This document shows, in pieces, positions 42,327 through 45,465 of a stretch of DNA of 64,000 bases. The stretch spans positions 419,780 to 483,779 of the forward strand of contig MU277676.1 in assembly GCA_022385805.1 (NCBI GenBank), given 5' to 3'. The notes beneath the pieces were generated by a model that saw nothing but the letters and a program-made list of their open reading frames with translations, ran no database searches and was not told where the DNA came from. The translations under genes were made by a program, and so were the position numbers. The stretch's first letter is position 1. Every line of letters begins with the position of its first letter. The DNA comes from Pilatotrama ljubarskyi. Taxonomy: Eukaryota; Basidiomycota; Agaricomycetes; Polyporales; Polyporaceae.

Positions 42327-42907
42327 TGGTCTCGTACCCAGACGATGGTGTGATACACCCGCACCCCACCACCGCGGTCACACCAACGTCTGGGGCAATT
42401 TAACCGTGGACTATACCGTGGGCTTTAGCGCCCGCCCATTTTGGTATATCGGCCTAAGCGCGCATAGATAACTCTCGCTTAGATCTCCCACCGCTACGGC
42501 GCGCCTGTCTTGAACACAACTTCGACTCCTTCCTGTACGCAAGGTGCCCTCTTTGGCTTGCCTGAATGCACAAATGGACGCATAAATTTCATATGGGTAC
42601 CATAGGATACCAGGGAAGGCGTCCGGCGACCAGATGGCCAGTCAGTACCAATCGACAACATCCTAACTTGAAGTCCGTATTCCTGCCTTTCCCGTGTTAA
42701 TTACCATGCGATGCCGCTTCTGCTGGAGGTTTTCACCTATATGCACCATATACACGTCATGTACCAGCGAGACTGCCCCCCGAGGGGCAATCACGACCAG
42801 TGGTGGTACTCTGAAGCCAGCGGTGGGAGATCTAAGCGAGAGTTATCTATGCGCGCTTAGGCCGATATACCAAAATGGGCGGGCGCTAAAGCCCACGGTA
42901 TAGTCCA

Positions 42908-42914
42908 CGGTTAA
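42908..42914. repeat. Target-site duplication CGGTTAA, left
   Basis: Seven-base repeat identical to 43803-43809. The uninterrupted left arm of the host element shows the same site once, which proves the duplication length. Confidence 0.85.
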
Positions 42915-43802
42915 TGGGGACTGGCAATCCCAGGGCCAAAGCACATAGGCGCGCGTGCCGGCGCTAAGCACATGGTCCGCGTCGTGATGGTACCAGATTT
43001 GCTTATCAGTGGAAAGATGAAGGAGATTAGATTCTTGTCTGCCCGCCATGATTATCGCAATGCACCGCTTGTGCACCGCACCTACTTGGCGCTTATACCC
43101 CCACTGCAAAAGCGGTGGTCCAGAGTGGTACCTCGTCTTTCGGTCCTTGCAGCAAGAACGGACGCGTTCATGACACAAATTCTTTCAGAAAAGCGTGTCA
43201 TACGATAGATACAACGAAGTCTCTGGACCCGATTGTCTCTAACTAGTCTGGGTTTGCTCTTGACACACACAAGGAGCACACCAGTCGCAATTTCATTCCA
43301 GAGAATATCTTCCGGGTATGTGGTTTCGTGGCTCAAAAAAAGTTTCAGGAGTGATTGGCCTAGCGAGTGAAGCTGGGCCGACAAGACAATTGACGAGGTC
43401 ACTTCAGCCACTGTGCTTACATAATGCGCACAAAGTATCGATACTAGCGGACTAATCGAGCCGGTGACGATAAATAAATTCATTTACTGCACAAATGACG
43501 GGCCCACAGAATGGCTGCAGTACTTCTGCACTTGTTGCGCTGTTTTTGCTGACCGAACGAGTGACTTCAGAGCAAATAGGAGGTCCGTACCACTTTCAGT
43601 ACGGCGGCACGTCGGGCGCTAGACCAGCGAGTCCCGATCGCGTTGGGTCTCCGATCGCGTTGGGCCCGTTTAGGTAGGAGCTCTCTTGATCTTTCACTCC
43701 TGATAACGTGGGCGCCAGCTTTATCTGTCTTTATGACTAGCGCCGAGTACATCCTTGATTACATAACCGGCACGCTCTTTTAGGAGGGGTTGCCAGTCCC
43801 CA
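42915..43802. mobile_element. 888-bp TIR element nested in the right arm of the foldback element
   Basis: Ends are inverted repeats of 17 bp with one difference (TGGGGACTGGCAATCCC on the left, TGGGGACTGGCAACCCC read inward from the right), flanked by a perfect 7-bp duplication CGGTTAA. Comparison with the intact left arm of the host element gives the empty site. The interior has only short frames and no recognisable transposase. A short direct repeat GATCGCGTTGGG occurs twice near 43640-43665. The superfamily is uncertain, and a 7-bp duplication is unusual. Confidence 0.85.
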
Positions 43803-43809
43803 CGGTTAA
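43803..43809. repeat. Target-site duplication CGGTTAA, right
   Basis: Right-hand copy of the 7-bp duplication at 42908-42914. Confidence 0.85.
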
Positions 43810-43879
43810 ATTGCCCCAGACGTTGGTGTGACCGCGGTGGTGGGGTGCGGGTGTATCACACCATCGTCTGGGTACGAGA

Positions 43880-43887
43880 CCAATCAG
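43880..43887 (+). promoter_or_regulatory. CCAAT box at the element/polyubiquitin-promoter border
   Basis: CCAATCAG lies about 215 bp before the polyubiquitin start codon. Its first three bases are the last three of the mobile element's right arm and the rest is flanking DNA. A role as binding site for the CCAAT-binding complex is inferred from the motif and position. Confidence 0.4.

Positions 43888-44024: not shown

Positions 44025-45465
<1,441 letters not shown>

Follow-up and report, generated by a model that had tools for sequence, protein, structure and literature searches.

Mutator-like elements (MULEs) leave target duplications of 8–11 bp. Transposons that carry a RecQ helicase and transposons with 7-bp target duplications are both already known: passages of one report describe KolobokH, a Kolobok of fungi that carries a RecQ helicase, in a superfamily whose duplications are TTAA (PMC9587614), passages of a second give hAT7 of rust fungi a 7-bp duplication (PMC12730594), and extracts of a third present Dada with duplications of 6–7 bp, a DxxH motif and small RNA genes as targets, Dada-U6 and Dada-U1 being without terminal inverted repeats (TIRs; PMC3706591). 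Here we describe two nested elements, A and B, in a 64,000-nt stretch (the window, to which positions without a contig name refer) on contig C7 of the 33.1-Mb Pilatotrama ljubarskyi assembly. The best explanation, to which we assign a probability of roughly 0.75, is that two unrelated non-autonomous DNA transposons are nested, A belonging to a group with a DUF6589 DDE transposase and a RecQ-like gene, and B being moved by a MULE/IS256-like transposase. Both are of a known kind, DDE transposons, yet apparently represent two undescribed lineages.

Element A, a TIR element of 661 bp without its insert, occupies 42327–43882 together with B (strands apply to arms and ends only). Its left arm (42327–42495, + strand, 169 bp) starts with TGGTCTCGTACCCAGACG and contains the insertion site once; a 323-bp spacer (42496–42818) separates it from the right arm, of which the inner 96 bp (42819–42914, − strand) terminate in the first copy of the duplication CGGTTAA (42908–42914). 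The 888-bp element B follows (42915–43802), bounded by a left end TGGGGACTGGCAATCCC (42915–42931, + strand) and an inverted right end TGGGGACTGGCAACCCC (43786–43802, − strand) that are complementary in 16 of 17 bases. The second CGGTTAA copy (43803–43809) and the outer 73 bp of the right arm (43810–43882, − strand) complete the structure, and the left arm pairs perfectly over 169 bp with 42819–42914 joined to 43810–43882. A sequence-only reading had proposed this anatomy, with A inserted first and B later, and both the coordinates and the order of events agree with our analysis. With B and one repeat removed, the window copy of A measures 661 bp and is 99.85% identical to an intact 660-bp copy at C26:151135-151794 and 99.70% to another of the same length at C90:74114-74773, with one gap each; the empty site, single in the left arm, is visible in both. 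The claim that the two elements are young is supported for A by this identity, and for B in the window by the unchanged arms only, its sole close relative being a 521-bp piece at C1:666495-667015 (95% over 516 query bases).

Because the right end of B itself reads CCA, the direct repeat in the window taken alone can be read as anything from 7 to 10 bp (CCACGGTTAA); a 10-bp duplication is ruled out by 14 other insertions, all of which give 7. A itself, in the window, is not flanked by a target duplication, a point absent from the sequence-only reading: its flanks, GGGCGGGCAG and ATCAGAGGAA, differ, unlike those of its two intact siblings, and one duplication may have been lost by later rearrangement or the insertion may have been unusual. 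The assembly was also searched for an allele without A, and this reading was rejected, as the flanks (327 and 218 bp) each matched only themselves. The right edge of A lies 217 bp upstream of the ATG (44100) of a polyubiquitin gene (44100–45465), which places the nest in or beside a housekeeping promoter.

Ten paired copies of A were examined, not counting five single ends (C66, C9, C58, C13, C12). Seven have an exact duplication of 8–9 bp, namely 9 bp at C26 (CTGTAACAG), C90 (GCCGTGTAC), C25 and C16 and 8 bp at three 1349-bp copies; in two, C29 and the C38 element of 6181 bp, the repeat has a one-base mismatch, and there is no repeat around the window copy. The repeats of C25, C16, C29 and the larger C38 copy were read by eye. 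With up to three mismatches allowed, the A-end pattern gave 49 forward and 41 reverse matches where the control gave 23 and 31, so that most three-mismatch places are due to chance. TIRs of this type are 169, 189 and 238 bp long. The longest bound a pair on C25 whose 238-bp TIRs, 22,977 bp apart and 99.2% identical, enclose a DUF6589 gene (E 6.6e-88), a RecQ-like gene and a fragment of a Plavaka transposase (E 1.5e-52), to which the size of this element is partly due; the fragment, at L035:1541-2473 (− strand), is a further case of nesting. The search with A ends retrieved two more pairs with a DUF6589 gene within each, on C16 (6301 bp; TIR perfect over the 71 bp read, 9-bp repeat) and C38 (6181 bp), and the 71-bp end of the C16 element as query matched only the ends on C16 and C38. 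The label "foldback" given to A in the sequence-only reading therefore needs replacing: the group to which A belongs consists of TIR transposons, the larger ones bearing DUF6589 and RecQ-like genes and A being one of the short ones.

At least eight DUF6589 loci exist in the genome. Ends were inspected at four of the eight, of which three (C25, C16, C38) lie fully within A-type ends and one (C123) is suggestive, the search there having yielded a left end resembling TAGTCTCGT and an inverted repeat of 44 bp at 89%, and no more. The RecQ-like protein of C25, used as query, hit six places including itself (C25, C16, C38, C123, C64, C112), and at each of them a DUF6589 gene lies 2.1–2.6 kb away; with the same query, two DUF6589 loci (C158 and C38:29-31 kb) gave no RecQ match. 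The genes are convergent at C25, C16, C38 and C123 and divergent at C64 (162761-167516) and C112 (60820-65712), which suggests two subgroups. At C25, C16 and C38 the RecQ-like gene, too, lies inside the A-type element. Among solved structures, the best relatives of the RecQ-like protein belong to the RecQ helicases, WRN included (best E 5.5e-17).

DUF6589 relatives share an invariant D/D/E set, with GWLH where C/DxxH would be expected, and the predicted fold is nearest to Hermes, the P-element transposase and RAG1, with modest scores; in this fold comparison, as in that for B below, families outside the listing are not thereby excluded. From the D/D/E set and the predicted fold, DUF6589 is likely a DDE transposase, structurally of the hAT/P/RAG type. 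By sequence, its profile found two matches among solved structures, none better than E 0.49. Fifty relatives matched 17 Pfam families at E up to 0.1, with no MULE, hAT or P among them. A wider profile search collected 103 proteins, one of them listed without PF20231, and showed no tie to a named transposon family; protein P0005 had no match in NCBIfam, and of 38 stretches in viral contigs that fitted a search pattern for DUF6589 relatives none was confirmed. DUF6589 proteins occur in many mushroom genera, e.g., Trametes, Ganoderma, Mycena, Amanita, Schizophyllum and Boletus. Their records are named hypothetical or DUF6589 protein, except for one that is labelled a capsule protein, apparently in error. 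Our literature search found no paper containing the name DUF6589, and the papers listed for PF20231 or DUF6589-related phrases were, from that listing, judged irrelevant; A or B may stand in Repbase under another name.

The 17-bp end pattern of B, with up to three mismatches, was present at 52 forward and 73 reverse places, compared with 34 and 39 for the reversed-pattern control. Seventeen paired copies were drawn from the 40 listed places with up to two mismatches and a scan of the loci around them. This count excludes single ends on C84, C42, C44, C1 and C5 (two), none of which had a recognizable partner with the matching repeat, as well as places on C22 and C37 and a second place on C44. 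One and the same B-like end, with two mismatches, is present at both C44:138230-138246 and C44:160820-160836, which lie 22.6 kb from each other and share their orientation. An exact 7-bp duplication flanks 15 of the 17 copies, the window copy included, and all 15 sequences are different; the other two are on C4 (none) and C54 (masked bases, none exact). The duplication length proposed from the window thus recurs at 14 other insertions. The target preference is weakly palindromic, about CTANTAG.

Copies of B range from 888 to 7904 bp, the longest, on C63, containing a multi-exon gene. Two 888-bp copies, on C21 and C35, match outer segments of the C63 copy (about 80, 277 and 230 bp at 97.5–100%) and are therefore internal deletions of such an element. 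The window copy belongs to another subfamily, with no listed match to the C21 and C35 copies beyond the ends. All three (C21:264619-265506, C35:49814-50701 and 42915–43802 in the window) are exactly 888 bp long, which is probably a coincidence. The two families cluster on C38 (267794-280231), where about 3 kb separates a decayed transposase gene of B type from a DUF6589/RecQ element of A type.

For relatives of the C63 gene product, the best fold match was the transposase ISCth4, which we take to be an IS256-family enzyme. Ten of 28 relatives matched the Pfam MULE domain PF10551 weakly at E up to 0.1 (best 4.4e-4); the core of the protein from the window genome reached E 0.087 and 13.7 bits, below the cut-off of 27.6. 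The 28 aligned relatives matched 17 Pfam families in all, among transposases only MULE and ISL3 and neither hAT nor P, although a distant hAT membership may lie below the reach of the profiles. The profile had no match by sequence to solved structures up to E 1, and in NCBIfam two relatives gave weak matches to ISL3 (E 5.2e-4, far under the cut-off) and IS1249. A DxxH follows the second D. B appears to be a distant family of MULE/IS256 type whose 7-bp duplication is unusual. The earlier statement that a 7-bp duplication with such ends fits no common fungal superfamily that could be named accordingly has to be modified, as the transposase of B appears distantly MULE/IS256-like, while the oddity of a 7-bp duplication, now for that group, persists. 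Homology between the A and B transposases was considered and rejected (hhalign probability 0.35%).

Under the favored explanation, a DUF6589 transposase would recognize the T[GA]GTCTCGT..CCAGACG ends and excise A, which would be joined to its target with an 8–9-bp stagger, and the RecQ-like helicase may assist strand opening or gap repair. The 660-bp copies of A would be moved by the same enzyme. B would be moved by the multi-exon transposase with MULE/IS256-like fold, with a 7-bp stagger. A was the first to insert, just upstream of the polyubiquitin gene, before B hit its right arm.

That the DUF6589 and RecQ-like genes are passengers, A being mobilized in trans by a Mutator-like transposase of the usual kind, is quite unlikely in our view. 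Long TIRs (169, 189 and 238 bp) together with 8–9-bp repeats do fit Mutator-like elements, and transposons do capture genes, but the joint presence of the two genes at six places is hardly expected of passengers, and the conserved D/D/E set and predicted fold of DUF6589 are of transposase type, these grounds coming from the DUF6589 and RecQ-like genes and not from a genome-wide survey of MULE genes. For B, membership in a named superfamily with 7-bp repeats, as a diverged hAT7, P or Dada element, could be considered given the repeats of 7 bp in rust-fungus hAT7 and 6–7 bp in Dada, as described in the passages introduced above (PMC12730594, PMC3706591). We regard it as unlikely, since none of the 28 aligned relatives matched a named transposase family except MULE and ISL3, their fold match is ISCth4, and B, unlike Dada, has TIRs and sits in 15 targets that all differ. 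An assembly error in the nest or its arms, named as a possible refutation in the sequence-only reading, might be suspected because assemblers can go wrong at long perfect inverted arms and because the window copy of A is without a target duplication; it is nonetheless extremely improbable, as two further intact A copies, each between 9-bp repeats of its own, and 14 further B copies with clean 7-bp repeats exist elsewhere in the genome, each in different flanking sequence.

As transposon biology the nest is ordinary, and it was well read from the window. More interesting is what it leads to: DUF6589 gains a probable function, and a transposon with two genes, one of them for a helicase, comes into view. 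If DUF6589 proteins are transposases, a large set of genes could be reannotated, repeat libraries for mushrooms could be made better, and whether a cut-and-paste element uses a RecQ helicase could be tested directly. The nested copy also provides a clean built-in reading of the 7-bp stagger. In a wider interpretation, about which we are evenly divided, DUF6589 would define a new superfamily of eukaryotic DDE transposons in mushrooms, two-gene units that bring along a RecQ helicase of their own; B would be a second undescribed lineage, MULE/IS256-like and shifted to a 7-bp stagger.

Among known systems, B resembles Mutator/MULE and IS256 elements in its catalytic fold, with ISCth4 as best match, in the weak MULE profile match of 10 of 28 relatives and in the DxxH after the second D. 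It differs from them in its TIRs of 13–20 bp, in a duplication of 7 bp instead of 8–11 bp, and in a profile match far under the Pfam cut-off where shown. With hAT7, B shares a 7-bp duplication in a basidiomycete transposon, but the relatives of its transposase resemble an IS256-family enzyme in fold and gave no match to any hAT model. With Dada it has in common the 6–7-bp duplication range and the DxxH motif; in contrast to Dada, it possesses TIRs and 15 different targets (compared as sequences, with no scan for RNA genes). Element A is similar to hAT and P elements in the tentatively predicted RNase H-like core of its candidate transposase, with a long helical stretch ahead of the last acidic residues, in duplications of 8–9 bp and in its best structural matches, Hermes and the P-element transposase. 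It differs from them in that the 50 DUF6589 relatives lack a Pfam match to either, and in its TIRs of 169–238 bp, the RecQ-like second gene and GWLH in place of C/DxxH. KolobokH likewise combines a DDE transposase and a RecQ helicase in a fungal DNA transposon. However, the seven exact A repeats are 8–9 bp long, varied and never TTAA, unlike those of Kolobok and KolobokH, and the A-type helicase, unlike that of KolobokH, is a separate gene on the opposite strand.
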